Virus record (IMG/VR): IMGVR_UViG_3300014838_000003
Span: 1-43,274 of that record
DNA length: 43,274 nucleotides
From: a virus
Strand: one strand, 5' to 3'
Both the position numbers and the translations under genes were made by a program. Position 1 is the stretch's first letter. Each line of letters opens with the position of its first letter. Below, piece by piece: positions 6,019 through 40,941 of this stretch. The notes below the pieces were generated by a model. It ran no database searches and was not told where the DNA came from. It worked only from the letters and a program-made list of their open reading frames with translations.

Positions 6019-7977
6019 CTATGCCACCGTCACGAGCGTCAGCAAGACGTCGCCTTCCATGTCCGGGACGCCGTTGCCGGGGTCGCGCGTGAGCCCCGGA
6101 GGCGCGCCGTTCGAGGTGGTCCACTGGTAGTCCTGGAGGATCGCCTGCACTTGCGACACGCCGTCCGTCCCCGCCGGGTCCGGCACCCACAACGTCACCG
6201 ACCCGGCCGCTAGCCGGTAGGCGTTCACGATGTTGGCGAGAAGCTCCTGCCCGGTGACGCCCTGGGGGTCGGCCTGGCCCAGCGGGTTGCGACCCTGCTG
6301 ATCGCGGCGACAGGCGACGGTGACCGTGTAGACCGGCGCCAGAGTGGCGAGCACGGACCAGAGCTGGATGTCGGGCTGGCGCGCGCCCACGAGCGTCACC
6401 TGGAGCTGCACCGATTGGCCGATGGTCCCCTGCGGGAAGCAGCAGACCAGGCGATCGTTGGTGGGGGCGACGGCGACGGGGAGCGCGGTCCACGCCGCGT
6501 TCAGGGAGTTGAGACGGAAGCTGACCGTGATGGCAAGGGGGTTGAGGGTCGCGTTGTTCATGATGAACTCGACCGACGCGAACCGCTTGTTGGTCGAGGG
6601 GGTGTCGAAGTCGTAGAAGCTGGAGACGATGGTGCCGTCGCTGGACGACGCTCCGGCCGCGGGCTGGAGGATGTACCAGTTTGCGGTCCCATCGTGCTCG
6701 GCGATCGAGCCGCCGGGGCCAAGCGCGCAAGCGTAGTGCGTCCCGGTGGTGGACGCCGCCCCCGCGACCGGGTTGCCGATGTCGGAGACGGCGCCCGTGG
6801 TGAGGCGGTAGCGCTTGGTGTTGAGCCCCGGCCAAGAGAGGTAGAGCCAGCTCGCGTCCGAGGAGAGCTGACCATGAGCGGTTGCGCCCGCCCCTCCCGG
6901 CTGGAAGGCCGCGTCGAGCTGGGTGTAGTCGTCGAAGGTGGAGAGCGTCGACCCGCTCAATTCGTAGATGACCGGGTACATCGCACCCGTCGCGGTCGAC
7001 CCCCAGCACAGGATGTAGGTCACCCCATTGGCGGTCTCGATGTCGAGCGGGACCTCGTCGACGACCCCGATCAGGACGGCGTCGGTCCCGTTGAAGGTGT
7101 AAAGCTCGCCGGTGTGGGTGCCGAACACGAGGCCGTCGACGCCGCATCCGATGATGTCGATGGGGGATTCCAGGATGGGGCAGGTATACACCAGCACCCC
7201 TGCCGCGGGAAAGGGCGGGGCGAACTGGTAAATCTCGCAAGGGGTCACCCCGACCGTGGCGGGCCGGGCGTTGCATACGCACCATAGGGAGCCCGCGAAG
7301 TAGGCCAGGGACAAGACGCTGAGTTGGGAGGTCTCGACCTGGGAGATCGTGACGTATCGCTGGTCGCCGGAGAGGAGGGCGGCCTGGAAGACGCCTCCGG
7401 TGAGGGTCGCGAAGTACGTCTCCCCGCGGTTCAGACCGTGCGTGATGATGCTGGTGGGGGTGCCGGTGACGGTGGCCGGGAACGACAAGGGCGTCGTCTG
7501 GAACTTCTGAATCTCAGCGCCGCCGTCCAGGAACGCCATGAACGCCCCGCCGCCCCCGCCGGGCGACACGGAGATCGACTTGCCCTGCCCCGACAGCGCC
7601 ACCAGCGCCGACGCCGTCGTCTGCGAGGTGTAGTTGCCCGCGCACGTCAGGTGCCCGGGCTTGGAGGTGTCGACCTGTTGCGAGGAGTAATACTGGTTCG
7701 CGGTCGCGTAGACCACTTGACGCTCGCCGCCCGACCAGTCGCCCTGAGAGACGCTGGGGTAGCGGCCGTAGCGGTCGCTGCTCGACGGCGATGCGATCTG
7801 GACCAGGTGCGTCTCATCCTGGAGGTCGGTGCTCTGCTGCCAGCCCGTGTTGGGGGCCATCACATAGCCCATCATCTGAATGTCGCCGGTTGCGACGTCG
7901 AGGAAGCCCAGCGCCAGGTCGTAGGTGGGGCCGACCAGGGCCATCTTGTCGGGGGTGAGCGCGCCGATGTAGCTCAT
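6019..7977 (-). CDS. Large beta-rich virion protein, probable tail component
   Basis: This 652-residue protein is made of alternating short beta strands and Gly/Ser/Thr-rich turns, for example repeated segments of the type DGLVFGTHTGELYTFNGTD and TANWYILQP. This suggests a beta-propeller in the middle, followed by a C-terminal beta domain (LWSVLATLAPVYTVTVACRRD). Such proteins are common in short-tailed phage tails. It lies between the ClpX-like ATPase (ATGA overlap) and the terminal membrane-protein gene. I see no enzymatic motif. I call it a virion protein from composition, length and position; the exact tail role is unknown. Confidence 0.7.
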   Translation of the reverse strand: MSYIGALTPDKMALVGPTYDLALGFLDVATGDIQMMGYVMAPNTGWQQSTDLQDETHLVQIASPSSSDRYGRYPSVSQGDWSGGERQVVYATANQYYSSQQVDTSKPGHLTCAGNYTSQTTASALVALSGQGKSISVSPGGGGGAFMAFLDGGAEIQKFQTTPLSFPATVTGTPTSIITHGLNRGETYFATLTGGVFQAALLSGDQRYVTISQVETSQLSVLSLAYFAGSLWCVCNARPATVGVTPCEIYQFAPPFPAAGVLVYTCPILESPIDIIGCGVDGLVFGTHTGELYTFNGTDAVLIGVVDEVPLDIETANGVTYILCWGSTATGAMYPVIYELSGSTLSTFDDYTQLDAAFQPGGAGATAHGQLSSDASWLYLSWPGLNTKRYRLTTGAVSDIGNPVAGAASTTGTHYACALGPGGSIAEHDGTANWYILQPAAGASSSDGTIVSSFYDFDTPSTNKRFASVEFIMNNATLNPLAITVSFRLNSLNAAWTALPVAVAPTNDRLVCCFPQGTIGQSVQLQVTLVGARQPDIQLWSVLATLAPVYTVTVACRRDQQGRNPLGQADPQGVTGQELLANIVNAYRLAAGSVTLWVPDPAGTDGVSQVQAILQDYQWTTSNGAPPGLTRDPGNGVPDMEGDVLLTLVTVA

Positions 7978-9011
7978 CAGGCGGCCTCGGCCCGTTGCAG
8001 CCGTGCGCTCTTCGAGGCGACGGCGCGGGCGTCCAAGATCAGCTCGTCGCCGGGGCGGGCCTCGCGCCGTGGGCGCCAGAGCATGTCGGCGAGGATCGGT
8101 TCGAGGGCGCGGGCGCCAAGAGCCCGCTCCTGAGCCATGCCCGCAATGGTCATCATCGCCCCCTCGTCCACGCCGAGGGCGAGCCCCTCGTCGGCCATGC
8201 GCTCCACCCAGCGGGGTACGAGCTGCTCGCGCAGGATGCGAATGAGGTGGTCCACCTTCAGCGGCGGCAGGGTGAGGATGGTGGCGAAGCGGCCCATCAG
8301 CTCGGGGATGAAGCCGTACTCGATGAAGTCCTCCGGCGTGGCGGTCAGGTAGAGCCGCTCATCCCAGGGCTTCTTGTCCCACAGCGCGATGGTGTCGTTC
8401 AGCCCCACGAAGGCGCCCATGCCGACGTGCAGGACGTGGCTGGTCTGGAAGAGGATGCCGGGCTTGTCCTCGTCCTCGCGGATGTTGGCCTCAGTCCCCT
8501 CGACCAGCTTCAGCAGCTCGTACTGGAGAACCTTCCCGACCTCGCGCTCGCCGGGCACCGCGGTCTTGTTGGTGCGGAGCTTGTCCATCTCATCCATGAG
8601 CACGACACCCCACCGCTCGGCGCGGGGGAGGTGGTCACGCAGCGAGATGGGCCGACCCTGCGCGTTCTCCTCGCGCTGGGCCCGGGAGAGCAGCCCGAGA
8701 TACATGGTCACGAGGTCGCGACCGTGGTAGCCGACGTCGGAGAACTCGGTCACCGCGACCTCGCACCAGCAGACCGGGATGGCGCGCAGCAGGGCCTTCA
8801 CGGTGTAGGTCTTGCCGACCCCGGTGGGGCCGACGATGAGGATGTTGCCGCCGTGCCAGTCGCGGTCCATGACGGCGGCAACCATGTGGTCGCGCAGCGT
8901 CACCGCGAGGCGGTGCTTGAAGTCCTCCAGCCCCGCCACGGTGCGGTCCATCGACTTGATCATGGCCTCGACCGACGGGATGTCGTCGAGGCTCTGCGGC
9001 GGCGTGAACAT
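7977..9011 (-). CDS. ClpX-like AAA+ unfoldase in the virion gene block
   Basis: This 344-residue AAA+ protein aligns with the ClpX ATPase core. It has Walker A GPTGVGKT (61-68), pore-1 loop GYHG (94-97, compare GYVG in ClpX), Walker B VVLMDEMDK (136-144), the ELLKLVEGTE helix (165-174), sensor-1 region VLHVGMGAFVGL (193-204), the FIPELMGRF arginine-finger segment (234-242) and sensor-2 GAR (299-301). The N-terminal zinc domain of ClpX is missing, and I see no IGF-type ClpP-docking loop between about 205 and 228. It therefore probably unfolds or remodels a protein without ClpP, for example a virion or host factor. I chose ATG 9011, which overlaps the adaptor gene's stop (ATGA); a GTG at 9044 lies inside that gene. 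Confidence 0.9.
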   Translation of the reverse strand: MFTPPQSLDDIPSVEAMIKSMDRTVAGLEDFKHRLAVTLRDHMVAAVMDRDWHGGNILIVGPTGVGKTYTVKALLRAIPVCWCEVAVTEFSDVGYHGRDLVTMYLGLLSRAQREENAQGRPISLRDHLPRAERWGVVLMDEMDKLRTNKTAVPGEREVGKVLQYELLKLVEGTEANIREDEDKPGILFQTSHVLHVGMGAFVGLNDTIALWDKKPWDERLYLTATPEDFIEYGFIPELMGRFATILTLPPLKVDHLIRILREQLVPRWVERMADEGLALGVDEGAMMTIAGMAQERALGARALEPILADMLWRPRREARPGDELILDARAVASKSARLQRAEAA

Positions 9012-9898
9012 CAGACGTCCAGTGTGCTCTTGGGCCGCGACCACGGGATCGCGCGCTGGAGGTCGTTCCTGATCTGGGTCGCCCGGCTCATGTACCAGGC
9101 CGCCGTCTGCTGGGCGAACCCCGGCGGCTGCGCGTTCTGGTCGGCCTGGACGGTCTGGGAGGCCATGCGGGTGCGTGGGGTCTCCCCGAAGCCCTGGAGC
9201 TGGGCGGCGGCGTACCAGAGCACCACGTCCGCGGCGACGTCGTCGACGTCCGAGAGCGAGCGGTAGGGCGCCGTGTAGTTGACCTCGACGGTCGAGCCCG
9301 GCGTGAACATCTGGGAGCGAGCGATGGTGAGCGTGGTGCGCTCCCGGGTCCAGCCGGTCAGCGGCCGAAAGCGGTTGGTCGAGCTGGGGACCTCACGGAC
9401 CATTATCGACCGGATGTAGATGTCCGGGATATTGAAGTCGCTGGGCAGCGTGTAGTCCCATTGCATCGTTTGGAGCGTGATCGAGGTGTCCTGAGCCTCC
9501 CGGAAGCGGTAGGGGTACAGGAAGAGCAGGCCGCCGTAGAGGGCCTGGAGCATGTTGGAATCGCGCCAGCGGACCTGCCGCTTGTAGACGATCACGTTGG
9601 CCTGGCCGACCGGCGGGGCGGTGCCGAAAAGCAGCCAGCCGGTATTGCAGTCGACGTAGACGTTGCCCGCGCTGACCTCGTCGGGGTCGTAGACGATCGG
9701 CACCGTGAACCCGTTGGAGGTCACGACGAGCTGATCGTCGTCGTTGATCTTGACCTGAGTGCATTTCGCCTCGGTCGCGATGCCGTTCATGGAAAACTGC
9801 TCGACCGCCCGCTTGGGGTGGTCGTCGACCAGCTCGCGCAGCCGCTTCAGCCACCCCTGATCGTCGCGCCCGCTCTCTGGCCCCCACGGTCCACTCAT
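9011..9898 (-). CDS. Adaptor / head-tail connector-like virion protein
   Basis: The 295-residue protein contains MLQALYGGLLFLYPYRF (about 115-131), SDFNIPDIYIRSIMVRE, an arginine/beta segment WTRERTTLTI, and PGSTVEVNYTAPY. This order (helical tube start, a Leu-Pro strand, then a 'TL..PG..v.V.Y' strand pair, then a helical C-terminus) is shared by many phage adaptor or tail-completion proteins that sit under the portal. It is embedded between a tail glycosidase-like gene and the ClpX-like gene, with ATGA overlaps on both sides. A tail-tube or stopper protein is the alternative. Confidence 0.6.
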   Translation of the reverse strand: MSGPWGPESGRDDQGWLKRLRELVDDHPKRAVEQFSMNGIATEAKCTQVKINDDDQLVVTSNGFTVPIVYDPDEVSAGNVYVDCNTGWLLFGTAPPVGQANVIVYKRQVRWRDSNMLQALYGGLLFLYPYRFREAQDTSITLQTMQWDYTLPSDFNIPDIYIRSIMVREVPSSTNRFRPLTGWTRERTTLTIARSQMFTPGSTVEVNYTAPYRSLSDVDDVAADVVLWYAAAQLQGFGETPRTRMASQTVQADQNAQPPGFAQQTAAWYMSRATQIRNDLQRAIPWSRPKSTLDV

Positions 9899-14399: not shown

Positions 14400-15674
14400 T
14401 TAGCCCATCGTTCCGTTGGTGACCATGACGTGCGCCTGGCCGCTGTCGTTGGCGGTGTTCCGCATCTCCAGCGAGCACTTCGAGAGCGCCCGGAAGGCGT
14501 CACCGTCGTTCAGGGTCGGCGCCGTGAAGGCGTAGAACCAGCCACCGTAGAAGGGCCGGATGCGGATGCGGTCCACGTCCAGCAGGAAGAGCGTCGCGAT
14601 GCCCGGCGCGTCGTCGACCTTGCCGTCCAGCACGAACTGGATGCGGTTGCCGAGCGGGGTGATCATGTGGTCGACCACGAAGCCGCGCTCGTTCTCCGAC
14701 TGCTCGATGCGGATGAGGTCGCGGTAGAGCCGCGACGCCGCCTGCGCGGTGTTGAAGCCCCACAGCGCCGTGTCCGGCATCGCGCCCTGGCGCTGCACGA
14801 ACAGGTTGGCGAAGTTGACGGCCGCGTCCACCTGACCGGCGCCCCACCCCTGGGTGTTCCAGTTGTAGGTCGTGGTCGAGGAGGCGTTGATGGTGGTGTT
14901 CCAGGTCCCGTCCAGCCAGGCGTAGACGCCCGCCAGCGAGGAGAAGTCACCACCGGACACCAGCGGGGAGCCGTTGGAGCCCGCGTAGGGCCGCCCGTAG
15001 ATGAAGGTCTTGTTCCAGAGCCGGAGCAGCTCCTCCGTCCGGCGGTGGAACTGGTACTCCAGCTCGTCGCGGATGCCGGGGGTGTACCCGGCCCGGGAGC
15101 GCTGGATGACCTCCATCGACAGCGCCACGTTGAGTTCCTGGCGCTCGACGTAGTTCAGCTTGGGGATGCGGGCCCGGGAGGTGTCGGGCCCGAGGCCCGA
15201 GTATTCGATGGTCGGGATGCCGATGATCGAGTAGACCGCTCCCTGCGCGTGGGCGGAGGGGGTCGTCCCCGACCATCCACGGGTCACGGTCGCCACACCC
15301 TGCGGGGTGGAAACGCCGCTGACGTACAGCATCTCGCCTCCACCCAGGCCGCCCGTGGTGGCGCTGACGTCGACGAGCTGGGCGCCGGTGCGGAGGATCG
15401 AGATGTCGGCGTTGCTCAGGACGAGCTGGCCGGTCGCCCCGGCCGCCTGGCTGGGGAGGCCGCCCGACTGCGTGTCGGAGACGTAGTCGTTGTTGAGACG
15501 GTCCTCGTCCCACTGGCAGATGGTGTTCGCGAACTCCGGTCCCACGGGGAGGGTCGCCATGAAGTTGTCGGCCAGCTTCAGGACCGCGGCGAGATAGTCC
15601 GAGATGTCCTGGCGGATCGTGCCTGGGGCTCCCAGGGTCACCGACCCGGTGCCGATTCCGGTTGGGGTTGCCAT
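14400..15674 (-). CDS. Major capsid protein (DUF5309/SU10-like fold candidate)
   Basis: The 424-residue protein has the layout of a HK97-fold major head protein of the DUF5309 type. It has an N-terminal IRQDISDYLAAVLKLADNF and PEFANTICQWDEDRLN block, a beta insertion (about 90-160), a conserved segment ARIPKLNYVERQELNVALSMEVI, a helix EYQFHRRTEELLRLWNKTF (spine helix), and a C-terminal beta domain ending PLGNRIQFVLDGK and RIRPFYGGWFYAFT. It is preceded by its own promoter and by a terminator for the upstream genes, consistent with high expression. The gene upstream of the terminator region is a scaffold candidate. Confidence 0.87.
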   Translation of the reverse strand: MATPTGIGTGSVTLGAPGTIRQDISDYLAAVLKLADNFMATLPVGPEFANTICQWDEDRLNNDYVSDTQSGGLPSQAAGATGQLVLSNADISILRTGAQLVDVSATTGGLGGGEMLYVSGVSTPQGVATVTRGWSGTTPSAHAQGAVYSIIGIPTIEYSGLGPDTSRARIPKLNYVERQELNVALSMEVIQRSRAGYTPGIRDELEYQFHRRTEELLRLWNKTFIYGRPYAGSNGSPLVSGGDFSSLAGVYAWLDGTWNTTINASSTTTYNWNTQGWGAGQVDAAVNFANLFVQRQGAMPDTALWGFNTAQAASRLYRDLIRIEQSENERGFVVDHMITPLGNRIQFVLDGKVDDAPGIATLFLLDVDRIRIRPFYGGWFYAFTAPTLNDGDAFRALSKCSLEMRNTANDSGQAHVMVTNGTMG

Positions 15675-15917: not shown

Positions 15918-16313
15918 CTACTCCCCCGGGAGCGCCCTGCGTACGGAGATCGACCCGCAGCTTGGGCACCTCACCAGCTCGGGCGGGTGCATCGCGTGGT
16001 CGTCGGAGTGGAAGGGCGGGCATTGGACGAGGTCCCCGCCCACCCGGACCTTGTGGCGCGGGCCTTCCGGGTCGACGCAGACCCACCGCTGGCGGGTGTC
16101 CGGTGGCGGCGGCGGATCGGGCTCCGGCACGGGGGGAGCCTCCTCGACCGGAGGTGCTGGGACACTCGCGACCGTCACCGCGAGGCTCTCAGAGCCGCTG
16201 GACGGCGAGGGGTCTGACGCGACCGCAGCGGGCGCCTCGACTGGAGCTTCCGGTTGGGGTGTTTCGGGCGCTTGCTCCGGTGCGCCTGCCAGTGCGTCCC
16301 ACGCCGATGTCAT
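15918..16313 (-). CDS. Pro-rich protein with a C-terminal zinc-finger-like domain
   Basis: The first 75 residues of this 131-residue protein are a Pro/Ala/Glu-rich, disordered arm (EQAPETPQPEAPVEAPAAVA and similar). The C-terminus holds WVCVDP, VQCPP, a His-rich stretch (HSDDHAMH) and CPSC, enough Cys/His ligands for one or two zinc sites. It is the last gene before the late terminator, translationally coupled (ATGA) to the scaffold candidate. It could be a head-assembly accessory, but only its position supports this. Confidence 0.7.
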   Translation of the reverse strand: MTSAWDALAGAPEQAPETPQPEAPVEAPAAVASDPSPSSGSESLAVTVASVPAPPVEEAPPVPEPDPPPPPDTRQRWVCVDPEGPRHKVRVGGDLVQCPPFHSDDHAMHPPELVRCPSCGSISVRRALPGE

Positions 16314-16933
16314 CGCCTACCTCCCATCAGGGTCTCGCCGGTTTCGAGGTTGACCCCGGCCTTCTCGCTCGCGTTGCCGATGACCAGATCGAGGATTCCG
16401 GGGTGGAACACCTCCTGGCCGCTACGGTCTGGGACGTTGCGCCCCGACAGGGCCAGCCTGCGGAACTCGGCGTTCTCGCGTCGGGCCTTGACGCCCTTGT
16501 CGAGCAGGGGCCGCAGCTCCTCCATGCGCCCCTCGACCGTCTGGGAGGGGACCTGGGCGGCCTGCCCGGAGGGCGGCGGCGGGGCCTGCCCCCACGATTC
16601 GCTCCCCGGCACTCCGCCCTTGGCCTGGTCGATGGACGCCTGCACCGTGGCGGCGAACTTCTCGACCTCGGCGGGGTCCTGGACGTGGGCGTACAGCTCG
16701 GGATTCACGCCCGGGAACTTCGTGGCGGTCGCGGTGCGGGCCTCGGCCAGCTTCCGCGCGCCCTCGACGGTGGCGTACTTCTCCTGCTGGAAGGCGGAGA
16801 CCTTGCGGTTCCATTCGACCTCGGCCTGGAGCCCGGCCACCTGATCGTGGCTGGCCTCGGCCGCGCCTTTGTCGGCCAGGAATTTCGCGTAGGCCGGGCC
16901 GTACCCGGGCAGGTCGTTGATGTCGAGCGACAT
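16310..16933 (-). CDS. Putative capsid scaffolding protein
   Basis: This 207-residue charged, mostly helical protein (AKFLADKGAAEASHDQVAGLQAEVEWNRKVSAFQQEKY; VQDPAEVEKFAATVQASIDQAK) has a Pro/Gly hinge near residue 110-125 and a helical C-terminus. Such helical, polar proteins directly upstream of the major capsid gene are usually scaffolds that guide procapsid assembly. No protease gene is seen. The call rests on position, size and helical composition, not on a recognised family. Confidence 0.55.
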   Translation of the reverse strand: MSLDINDLPGYGPAYAKFLADKGAAEASHDQVAGLQAEVEWNRKVSAFQQEKYATVEGARKLAEARTATATKFPGVNPELYAHVQDPAEVEKFAATVQASIDQAKGGVPGSESWGQAPPPPSGQAAQVPSQTVEGRMEELRPLLDKGVKARRENAEFRRLALSGRNVPDRSGQEVFHPGILDLVIGNASEKAGVNLETGETLMGGRR

Positions 16934-20444: not shown

Positions 20445-22061
20445 TCAGGCCGCCGCCGGGGTGGTCGCCGCGTTCGCCGTCGTCGGCGGAGTGGGCGAGA
20501 CGTTGGGCGCGCTCTTGCCGCCGACCGTCACCGTGGTCGGGGTGACCACCGCGTCGTGGAAGTCCTTGATCAGCGCCTCGTCGATGCCGGAGCTGAAGAT
20601 GTGGGTCGAGTTGATGTTGTCGTCGTTGAAGGCGCTGACGTAGTCCTTGTATTGCTGGTTGGTGACCCCGGCCACGCTCGACGGCGAGTTCATGACGTAG
20701 GTGTTCAGCTCGTCCGCGGTCCAGCCGCCCATCGACTGAATCTGCTGGGTGGTCGGCGGCTTGCCGAAGTATTCCTTCCAGAGCGAGGTCATGTTGGTGA
20801 TCGCGGTCGTCTCCTGTTCCCAGGTCATGCCCGGGATGTTGGACGCCCCGTTGGGGTCGCCGCCATTCGCGACCAGCGAGGCGACGATCGCGGAGGTGAT
20901 CGGGTAGCCTGCGTTCTGGAGGGTGGTGATCATCCCCGTCACGTTGGCATAGTTCGCGCCCGTGGAGAGGCTGGCGATGTTGGCGGCCGTATCCGGGACG
21001 CCGTACTGAGTGAGCAGGTCGGTGGCCTGCAACTCCTCCTTCCCCTTCTCCGCGGCGGCCTCCTGGCTCGCGATCGGGTTGGCCGTCATGTACGCGCCGA
21101 TGATGCTGTTCGCCCCCGCGCTCTCCATGTTGCCCGGGGCCCCGCCGCTCGATGTCGAGTAGATGGTCGGGGCGTAGGTGGAGAGCTGCTGGAGGAAGGG
21201 CGAGATGTTGAGAGTGAGGTTGTCCTCGGTCGTCTGCCCGCCCTTACCCGAGGCAGTCTTGTTGGCGTTCTCTATGGACTGGATCGCCGAGAGCATGTAG
21301 AGCTGGACCTGCTGCTGCGAGTTGGGGTCCAGGGCCTTGAACCCCGCCGTGATCTGCTGGGCCAGCGCGGGCGGCATTGCCTGGCCCGTCTGCTGCTGGA
21401 AGGTGTACGAGAGCATGTCGATCGCCGGAGCCCATATCCCGTAACTCGCCTGCGCGAGCCCCTGGATGAACTGCGTCTCGGTCATGGGCTTCGTCGGCGG
21501 CGCAGTCGGCCTCGCGCCCGTCGAGGTGGCGTTGAGGCGAGCCTGGGCGGCGGCGAAGTTCGCGACGTATGCCTGGTACTGAGTGTGGGCGGAGTTGTAG
21601 TCGAGGCCCGACATCTCGGCGATGCCCTGCGGGCTGCCACCGGGAGCCCCCTGCTCTGCGGGGGTGGTGAAGTATTGCGAGAGGAGCTGGCTCGCTGCCG
21701 GGGTGCCAGCCTCCGGGGTTCCGGTGGTAGCCGACGCCGGGGTCGCCGCGCCCGAATCTGTCGGTGGCTTCTCCACCGCGGCGGGCGGCGAAGTGGGCGC
21801 GGAGGTCGCCGCTGGCTTCACGGCCTGCGGTGCATACGCGGAAGTCCCGCTGCTCGTCGCGCCCTGGATCGCCGTCTGCAACGTCGAGAGGTTGGGCGCC
21901 CTGGCACCATAGGCGAAACTACCCGCCACCTGGGTCTGCTGCTGGGTGGTGAGCTGGTTCCACTGAGACGTGAGCGCCTGCCGATCGGGGGCGGAGAGCT
22001 TCGCGACGGCGGCCTCGAACCAGGACTGGAGAGACGCTGGAGCGTAGGGCGCGCTGGTCAT
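20445..22061 (-). CDS. Internal virion protein candidate, 538 aa
   Basis: The protein is Ala/Gln/Thr-rich with a short N-terminal helical domain (LQSWFEAAVAKLSAPDRQALTSQW), a disordered Pro/Ala/Thr region (about 75-125), and a long helical part. Near residues 440-490 it holds YFGKPPTTQQIQSMGGWTADELNTYV..SPSSVAGVTNQQYKDYVSAFN, the clearest copy of the module shared with its neighbours. No enzymatic motif. It is TAATG-coupled with the giant gene upstream. Likely one of several proteins that form or pass through the injection apparatus. Confidence 0.65.
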   Translation of the reverse strand: MTSAPYAPASLQSWFEAAVAKLSAPDRQALTSQWNQLTTQQQTQVAGSFAYGARAPNLSTLQTAIQGATSSGTSAYAPQAVKPAATSAPTSPPAAVEKPPTDSGAATPASATTGTPEAGTPAASQLLSQYFTTPAEQGAPGGSPQGIAEMSGLDYNSAHTQYQAYVANFAAAQARLNATSTGARPTAPPTKPMTETQFIQGLAQASYGIWAPAIDMLSYTFQQQTGQAMPPALAQQITAGFKALDPNSQQQVQLYMLSAIQSIENANKTASGKGGQTTEDNLTLNISPFLQQLSTYAPTIYSTSSGGAPGNMESAGANSIIGAYMTANPIASQEAAAEKGKEELQATDLLTQYGVPDTAANIASLSTGANYANVTGMITTLQNAGYPITSAIVASLVANGGDPNGASNIPGMTWEQETTAITNMTSLWKEYFGKPPTTQQIQSMGGWTADELNTYVMNSPSSVAGVTNQQYKDYVSAFNDDNINSTHIFSSGIDEALIKDFHDAVVTPTTVTVGGKSAPNVSPTPPTTANAATTPAAA

Positions 22062-25000
22062 TACTGGCCCGCCGCCGTGTAGAAGTTGGCGAGCTGCTCG
22101 TCAGCCTCCAGGTTGACCACGTCCTGCCACTTCCCGAACGTGTAGCCCGAGAGCTGCTCGGCGAAGGTGGGGTCCTGTGAGGCGAGGTTCTGGAGCGTGG
22201 TGTTGAGCTGCGTCATGATCATCTGCGTCTCGGTGGTGGAGCCGCCGGTCTGCTGCAACTCGTAGATCATCGACGCCGCCTGCTGCTGGGCCGCGATGGC
22301 GTTGCGCCACAGCACCGTGGTCGCGGTCTCGTAGTCGGAGTGCTGCGGGATGACCTCCCAGGTCTGGAGCGTCCGCAGCGGGGCGGTGGTCGAGGAGAGG
22401 TCCGCGGCCGACGTGCCGCCACCACCCTGCGCGAACTTATGCCCCCACGCCGGGTACTGCTGCTCCATCTGGACCAGGGCGGGCTGCATGTAGGTCTCGT
22501 TCCAGATGGTGTATTGCGGCGACGAGGTGCTCCATCCGTTCTGCTGCATGGTCGCGTATTCCAGGTTCTTCAACTGGTCGTACTGCAACCAGGCGTCGTT
22601 GACCTGGCGCTCGTCCGTCACCTTCGCCACAAAACTGTTCTGGTCGCCGAAAGGCTGGAGCGTCTCGACGTTGCCCATGCTTCTCATCAGGTCCCACTGT
22701 GAGAGGCTGGTGACCGTCTGCGAGCTGGTGTATTGGTACTTGCCCGCGCTGGACGACACCACCCACGGAGCGACCGCCTGGATTTCGTCGCGCTGGTCCT
22801 CGGAGACCCGGCTGTCCTGGTAGGCCATCATCGCGCCCGCCTGGTCGGGGGCCTTGGCGACGAGCTGCGCCACCGTCTTCGCGCCCGGCGCCTGGGTGAT
22901 CGCGGCCTGCCACTCCTGCTCGCTCACGCCGAGCGCCTGCGTGATCAGCGCGTCCTTCTGGACGTCGGTGGTCGCGGCGTTGTAGTTGCTCATCGCGGTG
23001 TTGATGTTCTCGCCCGCGACGTCCTTGACCTCGGGCGACACCGGCGCCACGAACTGAGCGGCGCCCTGGGTGGCGAGGTCGAGGCCGACGTCGCGAGCGA
23101 TGGCCTGCTGGTCAGCCTGCGTCACCGCGCCGTCGATCCCGGAGCCGCGCTTGTCGCGATCCCATTGCTGGACCTTCGCGCTGATCAGTTCGTTGGTCTT
23201 GTCGGCCCCCTCGCCGATACCCGGGATGTTCTCCAGGGTGTCGGTCACCGCGTTGCCGGTCCCGAAGGCGGCCATCGCGCCGCCCTGGAGCAGATCGGAG
23301 AGCCACGGGAACATCGGCGACGCCTGGCCGGTGCTCCAGTCGATCTCGTTGCTGATGCCGGGGATGGTGGAGAGGAGTTGGGCCATGCCGGGGTTGATGC
23401 CGCTGATCGCCGACCACATCGGGCTGAACACGGGGCCGGTGCCCGGGATCACGCTGCCGAGCCCGTCCGCGGTCAGGAAGAAGGCGTTGAGCGGATTGAA
23501 GGTGAGCCCCTCGCCGCCGCCGAAGCCCAGCATCGCCATGAAGCCGCTGCCGCCGCTCATCGCGGGTGCGGTGGTGTTGACCTGGGCCTCCTGGCTCGCG
23601 TTCATGGCGCGCACGGCGGCGACGCCGACGTAGGGGTGGTTCATCATCTGACGCCAGATGAAGCGGTCCAGGTTGGCGGTGGCGCCATAGAAGGGCATCA
23701 CGTTCCGCAGCGCGCCACCCACCACCGAGCGCGACCCCTGGTAGGTGTTGTTGAGCATCCAGTTGACGGCCTGCGAGGTCGATTCCTGGTCGACCATCTT
23801 CTCGAAGGCTGCGCCGCTCTGCTCGTCAATGGTGCCCTTGTAGTAGTTGCGGAGGCTGTCCTCGTACATGCCCTTGACCGCCATCAGCCCGTTGGCCCTG
23901 GCGCTGTCGATCATCGGCTTGGTGATCTCGCTGAAGACGAGGTCCGGGAACTTCACCAGATCGCCCTTCAGGACCATCTTGGAGTAGGCGTTCAGGGTCC
24001 GAGCCGAGATGGTCGGCAGCCCGGACCCGATCATATTTCCTTCGCGCTTCACCAACGCGGCGACATCCTTGATGTCGGCCGAGCCCGTGTGGACCATCTT
24101 GCGGATGGCCGAGTTCTTGAACATGCCGGTCGCGAAGCTATGCCAGCGGTTGAGGACCGCCTGGAGGTGAGCCTCGTCGGTGTCGCCACCCTGCGCGTTC
24201 AGCCACTCCTTCACCTTGGGGTCGTCGCTCGATCGCACGAATTCTTCGAGCGCCCTGCGCGAGTTGGCAAGCTTGGCAGTCTCGTCCAGCTCGCCCCCCA
24301 CACCGCTCACCATCTCGGGGAGCGCCTCGCGGCTCTTCATCCACTCCTTCACCAGCGGGTCCGGGATCAGCAGGTTGGTGATGACGTGGTGCAGGGCGGT
24401 GGCGTAGCCCACGTCGTCCGGGAAGTAGGGCTGGAAGGCGTGAGGCATGTATTCGTTGAGGTACTGGCTGTAGTCCTGCATCAGCCGCTTGGTCTCGGCG
24501 GTGTTGAGAATCTTCTCCGTCCTCGCCATGATCGAAGCGCGCCAACCCTTGTAGTCGCCCGAAGCGCCCAGCGCCCGCCCCACCTTGCCCTCGACCTTTC
24601 CCAGCGGGTCGATGATGCCCGCGCTCCGCAGGATCGACCCGCCCAACAGGCGAAGGCCCGTGATCGGGCTGCCGTTCGCCATCAACTGCACCACCGGGCG
24701 GATCGTGTCGTCTCCGAGGGTGATGCGGAAGGACGACGAGATGCGGCCGATGGTCCACCGCTTCCAGAGCGACATGACCGCGTCGGCGTGGAGCGCGGCC
24801 TGCACCTTCTCCGAGGAGCGGAGCGCCTTGCTCTTGGCGACCACCATCTCGTAGGGCGTGTACGGGAAGGCGTAGAGGTCGGCGAGCTGGGTGGTCAGCA
24901 TCGGCGTCGGCTTCGAGACCGCCGCGATCTGGTCGTTGAGGGTGCTGATCATCTCTGGCGGCGCGTCAGGGTCCGACTTCGCCAGTGTGAGCTGCCGGTT

Positions 25001-29486: not shown

Positions 29487-31550
29487 TTAGGGTCTCCCGT
29501 TGGGCGCGCTTGGCGCGGCTTCCTTCCGCGCGGGCCTCATCTTGACGACGACCTGGAGGTTCCCGGCCACATTCTGCACCGCTTGGCGCACCTGAGCAAT
29601 GTCCCGATGGTCGGTAACCTTGATGTCGATGGAGTGATTGGGCCCTCCGCGGACCAGGATGTCGGTGATCGGCTCGTACAAATGGAGCTTTTGGATCGCT
29701 TGGTGCGCCATCTTGGCGACGTCGGGGACTGGCGCGGGCGTTCCGATGCCCTGCGAGGTCGGCGGGGCGGCGTTGGGCTCGAATCCGGGGATGGAAGCGC
29801 CGCCCGGGGGCGCTGGGGCGGGGGGCGGTGGTTGAACGGGCGCCCCTCCGCCCTGCGGCGGCCCCGCAGCCGCCAGGCCGCCCTGCTGGAGAGCGGAGGC
29901 ATCCTGCATCGCCTTCGGCGGCTCGCCCGGCGCCCCGCCGCCGCCGTGAGGTGGTCCACCGGGCCCTGCGGGACCGCCGGGGCCGGGAGGACCGCCACCG
30001 GACGCCTGAAGCATCCCCATCGCCTTCTGGTGCTCGGAAAATGCCTCGTTCATCATCTGATCGGGGTCCTCGACGCCCATCGCCTCCAGCAGCACCCGGA
30101 AGGGGACGCGGTAGGGCTCGGGCGTGACCACGGATTCCTTGAACATCTGGAGCCACATGGCGAGGACCTCGTGCTTGGAGGTCCCAATGGAGGCGTCCCA
30201 GGTGGTCTTGGTCCGAATCCAGCCGCCGATGTCGGCCTGGGAGAAGGTCTCGTTGTAGGTCCCGCCGCTGTCCTGCCCGTAAAGGGGGAACTCGACCCCC
30301 TTGAAGGCGGGCAGGTCGCTCAACATGAGCAGGACCTTGGCGTTCAAGAGCTGGTAGCTCTCCGCGAGCAGGGTGTTGGAGAGCGCCAAGCGCGTCTCCA
30401 TCGGGCTCATCTGGCGATCGACCGATCGCGCCGAGATGTTCGACCCGTCCACCTTGCCCTCGGTCTGGATCGGCGAGACGCCGGTGACCTGATGGATGGC
30501 CGACATGAGCATCTGCACCATCGACCCAGCCACCTCGGGGCGCCCCTCGGGGGCGATCAGTTGGACGTCGCCGGTCTGGACGGTCGACACGGTCGCACCG
30601 GGCCCGATCTCGGGGCTGCCGGACGGCGTCTCGACGTGTTCGCGATCGTGAACGTGGACGATGGGGTGGACGGACCAGATCAGACTGTCCAAATAGATCG
30701 AGTAGGTCAATCCAAGCTGGCGGTTCATCGAGATCGCCATGCGGATGTCCGACTGCGCCGTCCGGCCGTCCGAGGCCTTGTTGGTACACCAGACCGCCGG
30801 GCAGAAGCCCAGGTCGTGCTCGACCGGCCTGATCACGTCACGCCCGTCAACCAGGATGCGCTTCTCGGACTGCCCGTAGTAGTGGATGACCTTCGCGTCC
30901 TTGTCGACGTCGATGCCGTACATCAGCTTCGCGTCCCGGGCGGCCAGCCGGAAGATGACGAAGAGGTCCTCCAGCTCGTTCACGGTGTAGCCCTGGCGGA
31001 AGTGGGGGAAGGCGGTGGAAGGGTTGACCACGCTCAGGTAGACGCCGAGCGGCCGGAAGGGGTCCTCGCGGCCCAGCCGTTCCTTCTCGGCGTCGACGTC
31101 GGCCTGGACCCGGGGGTTCATCACGATCGCGGCGTCGCCCATCGCCACCAGGAAGAAGGCGAGCTGCGCGCCCTGGGTCACCATCCCCGAGTGGTTGTGC
31201 TGCTCGCGGAGCGCCCGGGTGCGCTTGGTCGCCTGCTCCATCTGCTGATTGCTCGGGCCCTCGGGGCGTACAGCGTGGGTCGGCTCGACACCGCGGACGG
31301 CCACGATGCTGTCCACGATCTCGGGGATCATGTTGAGCACGTCGTCGGCGGAGACTTCGTCCTCGGCGCCACTCGACCCCATCCAGCGGAGCGCGGCCCG
31401 GCCGTCGGCGTAGTTGGCCTGGATGTTCTGCTGACCGCGGCGACCCTCCCCAAAGTAGGGGGCGGTCGTCCTCCGATACTCGGCCAGGCGCCGATCGTCC
31501 TCTTTCTCGCGCTGCTCGGCTTCGTCCTGGAGGTCTTTCGCGCTTCTCAT
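29487..31550 (-). CDS. Portal protein
   Basis: I chose ATG 31550 (MRSAKDLQDEAEQREKEDDRR), which overlaps the terminase stop (ATGA) and removes an implausible N-terminal extension. The 687-residue protein has the typical portal layout: charged N-terminal helices, a wing-like alpha/beta domain (GAQLAFFLVAMGDAAIVMNPR; PLGVYLSVVNPSTAFPHFRQG), a stem region with helices, and a VTGVSPIQTEGKVDGSNISARSV segment common in large portals. The C-terminal part is a Pro/Gly-rich linker plus a small folded end (ITDILVRGGPNHSIDIKV). The length fits short-tailed phages with large portals. Confidence 0.88.
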   Translation of the reverse strand: MRSAKDLQDEAEQREKEDDRRLAEYRRTTAPYFGEGRRGQQNIQANYADGRAALRWMGSSGAEDEVSADDVLNMIPEIVDSIVAVRGVEPTHAVRPEGPSNQQMEQATKRTRALREQHNHSGMVTQGAQLAFFLVAMGDAAIVMNPRVQADVDAEKERLGREDPFRPLGVYLSVVNPSTAFPHFRQGYTVNELEDLFVIFRLAARDAKLMYGIDVDKDAKVIHYYGQSEKRILVDGRDVIRPVEHDLGFCPAVWCTNKASDGRTAQSDIRMAISMNRQLGLTYSIYLDSLIWSVHPIVHVHDREHVETPSGSPEIGPGATVSTVQTGDVQLIAPEGRPEVAGSMVQMLMSAIHQVTGVSPIQTEGKVDGSNISARSVDRQMSPMETRLALSNTLLAESYQLLNAKVLLMLSDLPAFKGVEFPLYGQDSGGTYNETFSQADIGGWIRTKTTWDASIGTSKHEVLAMWLQMFKESVVTPEPYRVPFRVLLEAMGVEDPDQMMNEAFSEHQKAMGMLQASGGGPPGPGGPAGPGGPPHGGGGAPGEPPKAMQDASALQQGGLAAAGPPQGGGAPVQPPPPAPAPPGGASIPGFEPNAAPPTSQGIGTPAPVPDVAKMAHQAIQKLHLYEPITDILVRGGPNHSIDIKVTDHRDIAQVRQAVQNVAGNLQVVVKMRPARKEAAPSAPNGRP

Positions 31551-33490
31551 GCCAATCGCCGCAAGTATAGGGGGCGCCCGAGCCGAAGGGTAGGCTTCTC
31601 GCTGCGGGTGAAGTGGACCTCGGCCTGGTGGCGCGCAATCCACATCGCCATCACGATGTCGGTGTAGCGCCCCCGCCAGGAGCACAGCTCCTCTCGGAGA
31701 TCGAGGATCGCCTTCAGGGGCGCCCCCTGGGCGTGGAGGATCATCCGCGTGTGCTTGAAGATCGGCTCGAACTGCTCAACCCCCACGGTCGGGTCAGCCC
31801 CACCGGGCCCGGTGGTGTGGTCGATGATGCGAACGTCCGTTGCGATGCGGCTGATCTGTTCGGCGTAGATGGTCTGGATGTTGTTGTCCTCGACCGCCAC
31901 CGGCAGGTTGTAGCGGCGGGCGACCGCGATCAGGAAGTCGCATTGGGCCATGAAGCTGTAGCCCTCCAGCCGACCCCACTCGACGCCGTGGTGGTAGACC
32001 TCGGGCTTGGTGGTGGGGTCGAACCGGCCGCCGACCATGCGCGGATCACGCAGCAGGCCGGGCGGCAGCTCCTCGCGGGCGTCGTGCTGGCAGTAGACGA
32101 AGTATGCAGGGTGTTTTGAATACTTGGATATTCTTCCGCGACCGGGGTCGAAGCCGATCATCCCCGCCTGGGGCTTCTCGGGCATCTTTCCCCAGGTGAA
32201 GCCCGGCTTCCCGTCCTTGCCGTCCATCTCGCACTCCAGGACCCGGGCGCGGGGGAAGACGCGGCTCTCCGAGCCGGTGACGATGTTCCGGCAGCGCATG
32301 TTGAAGATGCGAGGGCCGAGCTTCTGCTTCAGCTCCTCCATGTGCTCGATGCTCTTGTGCTCCGGCCAGATGGTCTGGGTGTGGGTGCCGTCCGTGTAGC
32401 AGTCGAAGCGGAGGGCTCGATAGCCGCGCTTGCCCTGATGCTGCATGGCGTCATAGAAGCTATAGATGCGACTGCCGCAATCCTCGCTGTCGAAGAGGGT
32501 GCCGCAGTAGTAGACGCGCGGCCAGGCGGTGCCGTAGGGCGAGACGCGGCGCACGTCCTGGGCCATCGTCTCGGGACCGGACCTCCAGTAGTCGGCGAGC
32601 CGGTCCTGGATCGTGAAGGTGGCGGCGTTGGACACATTGACCCAATCGTCCCCTCCGACGCATACGTAGCGGTTGCCGGTGGAGAAGCGATTGGCGGTGA
32701 GCACCTCGAAGGCCCGGTCGTCCTGGGTCCGGCCGCGCAGCGAGAAGCCGCGGGTCGACCAGAGCTTGAAGCCGACGTCGCCCTTCCTGGGCCGGTCGAC
32801 CCAGGGGAAGAGCTGGTGGAGCTGCTGGCTGCGCTCGATCACGCCCATCAGCTTCAGACACCACCGCTGGCTGTGGGTCTCGTTCCAGTAGATGCGTCCT
32901 TCGCTCGCATCGCGCCACTCCGCCCAATCCATCAGGGGCACGGCGATGTTGTTGAGGTAGCTCTTCCCGAACTCGAAGGGGAGCAGGATGGCCGCGTTGC
33001 TGTATTGGCGCATGGCGTGGATGGCGGCGATGTGGAACTTCTTGAAGACGATCGGGTAGCCCTCTTCGTCGGCCAGCCCGACGAGCTGGGAGAAGGCGTT
33101 GGGGCTCCGAAGCGCCGCGTCGCGGAGCAGCTCGGTGATCGGGCCGCCCTCCCAGGTTTCGGGGTCGGTCTGCCGCTCGGCCTCGGCCAACCAGTCGGCG
33201 AGCGGCCGGGTCATCACGCGCTCCTGCGCCCACTGGAGCAGGTCGGCGACGTGCTCCCACCACGCCCGGGAATCAATCCAGTGGGCGGGCCTGGCGCCCC
33301 GCTCGCAGAGGAGTTGCCGCACCCCCTGGTGACGGGGGGTTTGGGAGAGGTCGAGCAGCATGATCGCCCACCAGGGGTACTCGTCGTCTCGCATCAGGCG
33401 GGCGTGAGCGGCTCGCGGCGAGTATTCGACGTCGGCCACCTTCCGCTGGCGCAGGTAGGGATGGCCCTCGACGACGTCGGGCTGGATCAC
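31547..33490 (-). CDS. terL: Terminase large subunit
   Basis: The 647-residue protein has both terminase activities. ATPase: an unusual Walker A, LPFEFGKS (170-177), and Walker B ending GGDDW (D281-D282). Nuclease: D448 in GFDPGRG, E534-D535 in AVEDNNIQ, and D611 in YTDIVMAMWIA, the RNase H-type three-metal-ligand arrangement. It cuts concatemeric DNA and pumps it into the head through the portal encoded next. GTG start, overlapping the RHH gene (GTGA). Confidence 0.92.
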   Translation of the reverse strand: MIQPDVVEGHPYLRQRKVADVEYSPRAAHARLMRDDEYPWWAIMLLDLSQTPRHQGVRQLLCERGARPAHWIDSRAWWEHVADLLQWAQERVMTRPLADWLAEAERQTDPETWEGGPITELLRDAALRSPNAFSQLVGLADEEGYPIVFKKFHIAAIHAMRQYSNAAILLPFEFGKSYLNNIAVPLMDWAEWRDASEGRIYWNETHSQRWCLKLMGVIERSQQLHQLFPWVDRPRKGDVGFKLWSTRGFSLRGRTQDDRAFEVLTANRFSTGNRYVCVGGDDWVNVSNAATFTIQDRLADYWRSGPETMAQDVRRVSPYGTAWPRVYYCGTLFDSEDCGSRIYSFYDAMQHQGKRGYRALRFDCYTDGTHTQTIWPEHKSIEHMEELKQKLGPRIFNMRCRNIVTGSESRVFPRARVLECEMDGKDGKPGFTWGKMPEKPQAGMIGFDPGRGRISKYSKHPAYFVYCQHDAREELPPGLLRDPRMVGGRFDPTTKPEVYHHGVEWGRLEGYSFMAQCDFLIAVARRYNLPVAVEDNNIQTIYAEQISRIATDVRIIDHTTGPGGADPTVGVEQFEPIFKHTRMILHAQGAPLKAILDLREELCSWRGRYTDIVMAMWIARHQAEVHFTRSEKPTLRLGRPLYLRRLA

Positions 33491-34266: not shown

Positions 34267-34417
34267 GCTTCTCTCCCTTGGGGTACGCCTGGTCCAAGAA
34301 CGGCTTGATGGCCTTGTCCTGCCCGGTGCGCGCGGCGCATCTGGGGCACTCGCCCACCTTGTTCAGCGTCGCCTCGCAGCTCGGGCACCTCTGCCGCGGG
34401 AAGAGGATCGGGCTCAT
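34259..34417 (-). CDS. Small zinc-ribbon protein, 52 aa
   Basis: ATG at 34417, coupled to the endolysin stop as ATGA. It contains CPSC and CPRC about 13 residues apart, a zinc ribbon (RQRCPSCEATLNKVGECPRCAARTG), followed by a short basic tail. It has no other domain. Position after the endolysin does not explain its job; many such ribbons in this genome suggest nucleic-acid or protein binding. Confidence 0.72.
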   Translation of the reverse strand: MSPILFPRQRCPSCEATLNKVGECPRCAARTGQDKAIKPFLDQAYPKGEKRG

Positions 34418-35244
34418 GGAGCCGGGGGTATGACGAGGACCTGTCCGGGGTGAATGTCGCCGGGGTTGGACCCGACCACCGCCTTGTTGGCGTCGTAGAT
34501 CGTGGTCCAGAGGTTGCCGTTGTGGTACTGGCGGGCGGCGATGGCCCAGAGCGAATCGCCGGGCTGCACCGTGTAGGTCACCTGAGCGGGGACCGGCTGG
34601 ACGGGCAGCGGGGCGGAGAGGTCGGGGATGACCAGCACCTCGCCGGGGAAGATCAGGTCGGGGTTGGTGACCGCGGCGTTGGCGTGCCAGATGGCGGGCC
34701 AGTCGTTCGCGTTGCCGTAGGCCCGCTGCGCGATGGCGCTCAGGCTGTCGCCCAAGACCACCGTGTAGTTGGAGCCCGGCGCGATCGGCGCGGCCGGTGG
34801 GGGAGGGGGCTCCGGCGCCGGAGGTGTTGGGACCGGCGCCGGAGCGGGAGGAGCGTTGGCTTCGAGGAGGAGCGCGAACCCGTGTGTGCCCCAGGTCCGC
34901 AGCTCGCCGATGATCTCGGCGTTGCCATACCACTCGTCGAGCGGGGTGTCGGCGAGGAGCGCGGCCTTGATGGACGGGTAGAGCCCGTTGCTGATCGTGG
35001 CCGCGGTCGCGGCGGCGCCGATGGCCTCGGTCGGGTAGTCGTAGACGTGCTCGTCGTTGCCGAAGGTGTTGTAGGGCGTCTCACCCTCGTAACCCGAACG
35101 GGTGGTGTCCCACGGGTTGTTGAGCGCCGAGGAGCCCTCGTAGCCCTGCCACTTCTGGCCGATCGCCAGCAGGTTCGCGCTGGTGGGGTCGGGGCAGCCC
35201 AGCGCGCCGTAGATGGCCTCGTACATGCTGGCGGAGTAGCTCAC
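34414..35244 (-). CDS. Endolysin with lysozyme-like domain and two LysM domains
   Basis: Start GTG 35244 (MSYSASMYEAIYGALG); an upstream reading would overlap the holin candidate. Residues about 5-127 form a lysozyme-superfamily-like domain: LLAIGQKWQGYEGSSALNNPWDT, then NTFGN, TEAIGAAATAATISNGLYPSIKAALL and the end. E36 is a candidate catalytic acid. A Pro/Ala linker (130-155) leads to two LysM domains: 159-207 and 223-273, each with the YTV..GDSL.AIA pattern. LysM binds N-acetylglucosamine-containing peptidoglycan. The neighbour is a holin candidate, supporting a role in lysis. Confidence 0.88.
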   Translation of the reverse strand: MSYSASMYEAIYGALGCPDPTSANLLAIGQKWQGYEGSSALNNPWDTTRSGYEGETPYNTFGNDEHVYDYPTEAIGAAATAATISNGLYPSIKAALLADTPLDEWYGNAEIIGELRTWGTHGFALLLEANAPPAPAPVPTPPAPEPPPPPAAPIAPGSNYTVVLGDSLSAIAQRAYGNANDWPAIWHANAAVTNPDLIFPGEVLVIPDLSAPLPVQPVPAQVTYTVQPGDSLWAIAARQYHNGNLWTTIYDANKAVVGSNPGDIHPGQVLVIPPAP

Positions 35245-36691: not shown

Positions 36692-37441
36692 CCAAATGCG
36701 TCTACCCCCTCAACGGTCAGCCCGACGAAGATACATGGGTGCCCCAGGCGCAGATGAGTGATTGCACCGCTTGGGACGTTGAGGTGCGGCTCTCTCATTC
36801 TCCACGCCTGCTCTGTTACCCGTCAACATTCCTTCAGCCGTCGTCGGAGGGCCCACTGGCCCGGAGATGACATCGAGGGGGTACGGACGTAGCCCCTCCC
36901 CGACACCTGCGGGTCACTCGGAGGCGTCAGGACGGAGCCACCCTGCACCCGCATCTCACCACGGACGTCAGTTGGCGGCTCCCGAGGAGCCTGACGACGA
37001 CCCCAGGTGACGCGCGCAGCTCCACCGGGACGTCCGGGGACACGATGAGTGGTGCGTATACGTCGATTCACGCACTCGGAAGGGGGGAACTCCTCTCTCA
37101 CCCCTGCGCGAGTGGAAACCCGGGGGTGTGGTGGGGGAGGGCGAAACGGGGTGCGCGGCGGGCTGGCTGCCCCGGACGCGGCGCCAAACGCCGCAGACGT
37201 TGGCCTCCGCGCGCGATGACGTGCGGCCATGCGCGGTCGGCTGGTGGTCGCTGCAACGCCCGGTGGTGACGTCGACGGGGCGGGAGGATCGGCCCGTCAG
37301 ACGACGCACGCGGCGCGATCCCGCCAAACCCGTGCCGCTGTGCGGGGCTGTGTGACACGGGATGAGGCGGGGCGGTCCCCTGGTACCTCCGCCATCCTCG
37401 CCGCGTCGGCTGGCCGCCGTGCGTCGCCCTAACGTGCGGGC
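36692..37441. other. Gene-poor region, largest in the genome
   Basis: About 750 nt lie between the end of the zinc-miniprotein operon and the end of the opposite MoxR/VWA operon. Several open frames exist on both strands, but none has a ribosome-binding site, a recognisable motif or a protein-like composition. Visible structure: hairpin GGCTCC-CGA-GGAGCC (36977-36991) with outer arms GTCA/TGAC; GCGGCG-CCAAA-CGCCGC (37178-37194); GTGCGT/ACGCAC (37052-37075) around a CGTATACG palindrome; GGGCC-CACT-GGCCC (36849-36862). No T run follows these. It may be an origin, packaging site or non-coding RNA. Confidence 0.55.
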
Positions 37442-37478
37442 AAAAGAGAACCGCCCCGACGCGGTGCCGGAGCGGTTC
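37442..37478 (-). terminator. Intrinsic terminator for the MoxR/VWA operon
   Basis: In minus-strand RNA GAACCGCUCCG (from 37478-37468) pairs with CGGGGCGGUUC (from 37458-37448) over 11 positions with one U-G wobble, loop of 9, then UCUUUU down to 37442. It lies 21 nt after the stop of the gene at 37499. A second GAACCGC copy (37494-37488) could compete for the same arm. Confidence 0.82.
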
Positions 37479-37498
37479 GATAGGTGCGGCGGTTCGGG

Positions 37499-37744
37499 TC
37501 AGCTCGGGACGATCAGCTCGCAGTCAACGCCCCGCAGCACCGCGATCAGCGCGCGCCGGTCCGGGTTGTCGCTGCCACCGGTCCGGAAGACGCGGAAGAC
37601 GTCGCCGCCATCCTCCCAACTCGCGACGATCTCCACGCCCAGCTCCCAACCCTGACACCGCGCGGCGGCCCCGGTGGATTTGTCGCCCAGCCGATGCACT
37701 GCCCGACCGCGGCGACTACTGATCTCCGCCAGGTACTGAGCCAT
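37499..37744 (-). CDS. Hypothetical protein, 81 aa
   Basis: ATG at 37744 behind GGAGGG. The sequence (AQYLAEISSRRGRAVHRLG; CQGWELGVEIVASWEDGGDVFRVF; RTGGSDNPDRRALIAVLRGVDCELIV) looks like a small alpha/beta fold. No catalytic motif. It is the last gene of the MoxR/VWA operon. It may be a dedicated partner of that system, based only on position. Confidence 0.7.
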   Translation of the reverse strand: MAQYLAEISSRRGRAVHRLGDKSTGAAARCQGWELGVEIVASWEDGGDVFRVFRTGGSDNPDRRALIAVLRGVDCELIVPS

Positions 37745-37745
37745 C

Positions 37746-37955
37746 TCACACCCTCCCCGGGTGCAGCTCGCGCCCGATCTCGGCGGCCAGGACGCTCTCG
37801 CAGCCCGGGCAGACCATGTGAACCGTGTCGCCCAGCTCATGGCCAGGCTCGCCCAGACGCGCGGCGAGTTCCGCCCGCCATCCACACTCCTCACAGGTGA
37901 TGCGGATGTGGGGCAGGTGCCCCCGCTCCGCCCGTTGACTGTTCGGCCATCTCAT
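37746..37955 (-). CDS. Small zinc-binding protein, 69 aa
   Basis: I chose ATG 37955, with AGGAGAGG upstream. An ATG at 37976 overlapping the VWA stop (ATGA) gives 7 more residues and is possible. CEEC and CPGC (ITCEECGWRAEL..; HMVCPGCESVL) form a zinc ribbon. The protein is coupled to the VWA gene. Its neighbour's upstream partner, the AAA+ protein, also carries a zinc ribbon, so metal-binding ribbons are a repeated feature of this operon. Confidence 0.75.
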   Translation of the reverse strand: MRWPNSQRAERGHLPHIRITCEECGWRAELAARLGEPGHELGDTVHMVCPGCESVLAAEIGRELHPGRV

Positions 37956-37972
37956 CTCGACACCTCTCCTCA

Positions 37973-40605: not shown

Positions 40606-40631
40606 TCGGTTTAGCCTCCGCTCGCCCCGGG

Positions 40632-40637
40632 GTATAA
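40632..40637 (-). promoter_or_regulatory. Possible -10 element of the MoxR operon
   Basis: TTATAC reads toward the MoxR gene 27 nt upstream of its start. No good -35 is visible at 16-18 nt; instead three TGTGAG sites lie just upstream, so the promoter may need an activator. Weak evidence. Confidence 0.35.
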
Positions 40638-40657
40638 CGGGGCCGAGAGGCAATCAT

Positions 40658-40695
40658 CTCACAGCCCGCCTCACATCTGCCACATCCGCCTCACA
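40658..40695 (-). repeat. TGTGAG(GCGG) direct repeats upstream of the MoxR gene
   Basis: Minus-strand TGTGAGGCGG occurs twice (40675-40666 and 40695-40686, 20 nt apart) and TGTGAG a third time (40663-40658). The same TGTGAG occurs on the other strand at 40905-40910 and 40938-40943, facing the opposite gene. Confidence 0.7.
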
Positions 40696-40711
40696 AGGAC
40701 GCACCCATGCT

Positions 40712-40822
40712 CGGCACGCCCATCCGACCCGACCATCCGTTCGGTACGGATGTTCGATGTAGGGCCGCCCGGTACGGATGTTCAGCACGTCCGTTCGGTA
40801 TGCCTGTTCGGCACGGATGTTC
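40712..40822. repeat. Iteron-like direct repeat array
   Basis: CGGTACGGATGTTC occurs exactly at 40742-40755 and 40770-40783, with one mismatch at 40809-40822, and more loosely at 40796-40809 and 40712-40725. Starts are 28, 26 and 13 nt apart. TCCGTTCGGTA occurs at 40736-40746 and 40790-40800. Candidate binding sites for a replication initiator or repressor. Confidence 0.85.
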
Positions 40823-40876
40823 GGTGCGGGGGAGGGCGAGGGCGAGCTTCTGAAACAGCCGTCGCCGGGGGTCTGC

Positions 40877-40907
40877 TTGACAAAATCTTCCGCTACGCCC
40901 ACACTGT
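40877..40907 (+). promoter_or_regulatory. Promoter candidate for the early operon
   Basis: TTGACA (40877-40882) with a weak -10, best read as CACACT (17-nt spacer) or CACTGT (19-nt). The -10 region overlaps the outer arm of the inverted repeat at 40900-40941, so a protein bound there would block it. Confidence 0.5.
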
Positions 40908-40941
40908 GAGAAGTTGCCTACGGTGAGCGTAGGCCAGTGTG
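40900..40941 (+). promoter_or_regulatory. Compound inverted repeat, operator or RNA hairpin
   Basis: Inner perfect stem GCCTACG (40916-40922) / CGTAGGC (40928-40934) with loop GTGAG. Outer arms CACACTG (40900-40906) / CAGTGTG (40935-40941), separated on the 5' side by 9 nt. The 3' arm runs into the ribosome-binding sequence GAGGTG (40941-40946) of the gene at 40954. Confidence 0.72.

Follow-up and report, generated by a model that had tools for sequence, protein, structure and literature searches.

Background

Unfoldases of the ClpX type are common among large phages, and the loop that docks the protease ClpP is kept in them. A possible contribution of ClpX to virion assembly has already been proposed for jumbo phages. 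In the annotated records examined, phage ClpX genes adjoin topoisomerase, initiation-factor, ClpP-like or nucleotide-metabolism genes and lie outside virion blocks. The ClpX gene of PA5oct (NC_071039.1 169949-170845) is annotated as 'porphyrin biosynthesis'. The assembly of tailed phages is generally held to need ATP for genome packaging only and to rely otherwise on simpler chaperones. Two cases of other kinds have been described. The MoxR AAA+ chaperone of Acidianus two-tailed virus is reported to be required for assembly of the virus tail (PMC7824862). The yeast protein Mcx1 is a ClpX without the IGF element and is thought to be purely an unfoldase or chaperone (PMC10886707).

The window, that is the whole stretch of DNA that was analysed, is a virus record of 43,274 bases. 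It carries an exact 92 bp direct repeat at positions 1-92 and 43183-43274 and, on account of this terminal repeat, is probably a complete genome. What is new in it is a minimal unfoldase of the ClpX type that lacks the ClpP-docking loop and is encoded in the late operon of a small virus of bacteria. A search of the literature gave no account of a ClpX in the virion block of a small phage.

The ATPase gene and its product

The initial annotation had placed a gene at this locus with ends that proved to be exact, since translation of the window gives an ATG at 9011, a TGA ending at 7977 and 344 codons between them on the minus strand (Table 1). By codon usage the gene is coding, with a log-likelihood of +139.8 nats, its own codons being within the training set.

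Among solved structures, a sequence search of the PDB places ClpX closest to the 344-aa protein, at E 4e-27, followed by HslU at E 2e-20. The Pfam AAA_2 and ClpB D2-small domains are above cut-off. An AlphaFold2 model has a mean pLDDT of 93 and a pTM of 0.90, although the alignment of 42 sequences beneath it is almost wholly canonical ClpX and the model is therefore biased towards ClpX. When the best PDB chains from Foldseek were compared again with the model, ClpX came first (Z 34.5, rmsd 2.2, 319 residues aligned), with HslU approximately 7 Z units below. The large and small AAA+ domains of ClpX, Walker A and B, the arginine finger and sensor 2 are all present. Because all four of these motifs are kept, the protein is expected to be an active ATPase. 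The annotated set of ClpX core motifs is thus complete and includes the pore tyrosine, Tyr95, but the pore-1 loop reads GYHG rather than GYVG.

The protein falls below the cut-offs of both equivalogs in NCBIfam, scoring 135.1 bits against 359 for ClpX (NF003745) and 75.4 bits against 362 for HslU (TIGR00390). Its best profile match is phrog_4339, a cluster of phage ClpX and HslU, at E 4e-39. For the same profile, six canonical phage ClpX have E-values of 1e-82 to 1e-112, the partial L197 protein 1e-59, and three HslU-like proteins 1e-129 to 1e-184. In a tree, the protein stands on an end branch of 4.5 within no supported set; the tree cannot place it and gives no basis for descent from either ClpX or HslU. 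Sequence and predicted fold together support its assignment as a ClpX-type AAA+ ATPase of the ClpX/HslU branch.

Table 1. Positions of the ATPase gene, its motifs and neighbouring features in the window
Feature	Position	Strand	Evidence or comment
ClpX-type AAA+ ATPase gene	7977..9011	-	344 aa; translation, PDB sequence match, AlphaFold2, fold
Walker A, GPTGVGKT, residues 61-68	8808..8831	-	maps to E. coli ClpX 119-126
Pore-1 loop, GYHG, residues 94-97	8721..8732	-	mapping; pore Tyr is Tyr95
14-residue insertion before Walker B, HslU I-domain site	8628..8678 (approximate)	-	mapping
Walker B, VLMDEMD, residues 137-143	8583..8603	-	mapping on E. coli ClpX
Site of ClpX IGF loop, residues 202-232	8316..8408	-	31 residues vs 47 in E. 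coli ClpX
Arginine finger, R241 (GR)	8289..8291	-	mapping on E. coli ClpX
Sensor 2, R301 (GAR)	8109..8111	-	mapping on E. coli ClpX
TGATG stop/start overlap, ATPase and upstream gene	9009..9013	-	1-base overlap
TGATG stop/start overlap, ATPase and downstream gene	7975..7979	-	1-base overlap
Upstream neighbour, 295 aa	9011..9898	-	possible connector/adaptor by position only
Downstream neighbour, 652 aa	6019..7977	-	possible tail protein by position only
Major capsid protein, late block	14400..15674	-	SU10_MCP, E 1.7e-16
Large terminase, late block	31547..33490	-	phrog_38, E 1.6e-12
Endolysin-like protein with LysM repeats, late block	34414..35244	-	phrog_380, E 8e-38; LysM

Lost and altered parts

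Both absences that had been annotated, of the zinc N-domain and of a visible ClpP-binding loop, are borne out. A motif check of the 344-aa protein found no CxxC...CxxC; this domain is not universal, since 57 of 80 viral ClpX loci have it, as judged from the motif. When the protein is mapped on E. coli ClpX, its loop segment contains no IGF-type tripeptide for docking ClpP. Such a tripeptide is kept in 79 of the 80 other viral loci, the exception (L050) having a segment of 47 residues without it. A conserved VGL stands after GAF in ClpX. Following the GAF/GL motif there are 25 residues in the 344-aa protein, as against 32-47 across the 80 viral loci.

A short loop alone does not remove the tripeptide, as it is retained in 76 of 79 short-loop ClpX from bacteria. 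These 79 were parsed from 97 bacterial stretches with the exact short-loop pattern, 84 of which have a ClpX-like ORF, leaving 5 unparsed. Among viral sequences the pattern occurs in 1 stretch, which carries a zinc domain and VGF.

The same mapping shows the RKH loop to be missing. The spacing from L107 to G135 is 27 residues, compared with 13 for ClpX and 147 for HslU of E. coli, so the insertion before Walker B does not amount to an HslU I-domain. GYVG forms the pore-1 loop at 79 of the 80 loci of viral ClpX; GYHG is seen in jumbo-phage HslU-like proteins and in a minimal ClpX-like protein, L297.

Genome setting

The called genes of the late block (5602-35768) are co-directional and mostly separated by short gaps or overlaps, the largest gap being 635 bp. 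Besides the structural, packaging and lysis genes of Table 1, the block contains a gp80-like fibre/head protein and, at 16310-16933, a 207-aa candidate scaffold protein. The annotated position of the ATPase inside a virion block therefore stands at the level of the operon, with its terminase, major capsid and lysin, and is weaker for the two genes named as its partners. These had been called a head-tail adaptor and a tail gene, names that find no match to a named family, the PDB or the phage collections. The upstream protein has a weak match to phrog_7578, of unknown function (E 9e-4), an uninformative single-sequence model (pLDDT 36) and no homologues in the contig collections searched. The downstream protein has no family or PDB match, and its one match in the collection search (E 0.6) was taken as chance. 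The ATPase gene does overlap both neighbours, but by a single base within TGATG and not through the ATGA that had been described; the closest overlap of the ATGA type is one gene further upstream, at 9895-9898.

Elsewhere in the block, a 1761-aa protein (22061-27346) without Pfam or PHROG match could, to judge from its size alone, be a tape measure or an internal protein of the virion. In contrast to the late block, a stretch of approximately 4 kb at 36700-40950 is sparsely filled with called genes, which score weakly, and its GC skew is negative. Between 5500 and 12600, scans for promoters and terminators picked up no signal that stood usefully above shuffles. At the thresholds applied, no ClpP or HslV gene was found in the 43,274-base genome.

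Relatives of the virus and of the ATPase

Searches of viral contigs, phage records and one genome per bacterial and archaeal species gave no match to the 344-aa protein above approximately 31% identity over most of its length. For the portal candidate, the 1761-aa protein, a 448-aa protein and the terminase, a search of 50,697 phage records gave no match, and by this measure the virus seems to belong to an orphan lineage. Elsewhere the terminase search found one weak locus, L002, the record of which has no match to the 344-aa protein. Searches with the major capsid protein led to Bacillus phages that have tail-tube and tape-measure genes and to 80 viral loci. Apart from the capsid, the only called genes of the window with matches in these capsid-matched loci are the lysin, matched by 9 ORFs, and a small ORF with 3 weak matches. 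No orthologue of the 344-aa protein was found in these collections, and there is accordingly no sign that the loop loss or the gene position is conserved.

Within flanks of up to 8 kb, the 80 viral ClpX loci have no further gene in common with the window. A ClpP match is present in 33 of these 80 records (22 of 50 plus 11 of 33, the latter including L197, L201 and L205, which are without one), some of the ClpP-bearing records looking like bacterial fragments. Three phage-labelled ClpX (L003; L004, MT835536.1; L012, CAKLQH020000005.1) were set aside as bacterial clpX loci. Of these, L004 and L012 are bacterial clpP-clpX loci despite the label.

Proposed function

The 344-aa protein probably reshapes proteins instead of feeding their destruction, because the parts of ClpX that dock the protease have been lost. 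It would form a ring hexamer in which Tyr95 of the pore loops takes hold of a polypeptide, and ATP would drive the passage of this chain through the pore. Having neither a ClpP docking site nor a protease of its own, it would release the client remodelled rather than degraded. An unfoldase working without ClpP had been suggested for this locus. The ClpX type is upheld by sequence and fold, and independence from ClpP draws support from the missing docking loop and from the lack of a ClpP or HslV gene in the seemingly complete genome; hexamer, ATPase, unfolding activity, ClpP independence and client are all predicted properties of the protein.

The ATPase would be translated together with the late virion block. 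Being coupled to late genes, it probably has a client that belongs to the virion or to packaging, most likely a virion, scaffold or packaging protein that the phage encodes in the same block. A ClpP-independent unfoldase or remodeller made late, acting most likely on such a protein, is accordingly the reading preferred here, although its chances are put at a little under even. A more specific form, in which a protease-free ClpX is dedicated to virion assembly and takes part in head-tail maturation by threading or unfolding a protein of the particle, is possible but should be held more tentatively. The operon position itself names no client, as canonical ClpX genes of phages have replication and metabolic genes around them. 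It had been stated that the idea would be refuted if the homologues of all related phages lay outside virion blocks. The jumbo-phage ClpX genes do lie outside such blocks, but they are not orthologues of the loop-less form and so do not refute it.

Virion assembly and host takeover are both in keeping with the sequence. The same ClpP-independent unfoldase might act on a host protein, in takeover or counter-defence, with the late block merely a convenient site for its expression. The location of other phage ClpX genes outside virion blocks agrees with this, as does a sequence that indicates no client. Coupling to late genes would, however, be late for takeover, and there is no early-gene context, which makes a host client unlikely.

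Host ClpX remodels the Mu transpososome, and by analogy the client of the 344-aa protein could be a nucleoprotein complex that replicates, recombines or packages DNA. RecT-like, Cas4-like and VRR-NUC genes are present in the virus, and some viral ClpX genes of the zinc-less kind adjoin exonuclease and SSB genes, as in L034, where the tail genes are on the opposite strand. In the window, however, the RecT-like, Cas4-like and VRR-NUC genes are on the opposite strand from the ATPase and in a separate block, and such a role is less probable again than a host client.

It is also conceivable that the protein serves a protease of the host and makes contact with it elsewhere than at an IGF loop, for example in the fashion of HslU. 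The shortened GAF-IPE segment, the insertion at the I-domain site and the GYHG shared with jumbo-phage HslU-like proteins are in keeping with this. The C-terminal tail of HslU is hydrophobic, whereas the 344-aa protein ends in RLQRAEAA, and the HslU profile gives 75 bits as against 135 for ClpX; service to a host protease is thus decidedly doubtful. A place for the protein inside the particle, with a part in the ejection of DNA or protein, would suit a gene between late genes, but literature searches gave no precedent and this is the most improbable of the alternatives.

With a ClpX that appears to have no means of docking ClpP and whose gene is coupled to those of the virion, the idea of an ATP-driven unfoldase in the building of the particle would become directly testable.

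Comparison with known systems

E. coli ClpX and the 344-aa protein have in common the large and small AAA+ domains, Walker A and B, the arginine finger, sensor 2 and the pore tyrosine. They differ in that the viral protein is without the zinc domain, IGF and RKH and has a GYHG pore and a 14-residue insertion. ClpX proteins of jumbo phages (G gp258, Lak, Phosso, Atu_ph07 and the PA5oct type) are likewise encoded by phages and are approximately 26-30% identical to it, but they have both a zinc domain and a loop of the IGF type and belong to genomes of hundreds of kb rather than 43 kb. The minimal protein L297 (1402-2433 of a 22,988 bp viral contig) is similar in its 344 aa, its GYHG and its lack of a zinc domain and RKH, at 26% identity. 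It differs in having kept an IGL loop, and its gene adjoins a RusA-like ORF and an overlapping pair that is spanin-like by eye, not virion genes.

HslU and the jumbo-phage HslU-like proteins (phrog_4339) share with the 344-aa protein a shortened GAF-IPE segment and an insertion before Walker B, and the jumbo-phage forms also the GYHG pore. In E. coli HslU, however, the insertion is a full domain, with 147 residues between the same points. The AAA+ protein of Acidianus two-tailed virus is of the MoxR clade and not a ClpX. It resembles the 344-aa protein as an AAA+ chaperone (PMC7824862) and differs in acting with a vWA partner.

Mcx1, as described, lacks the IGF element as does the viral protein (PMC10886707), but it is mitochondrial and its client is an enzyme of haem synthesis. 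If the preferred reading of a ClpP-independent remodeller is true, the 344-aa protein would stand beside Mcx1 as a viral case of a ClpX that has become a pure remodeller.
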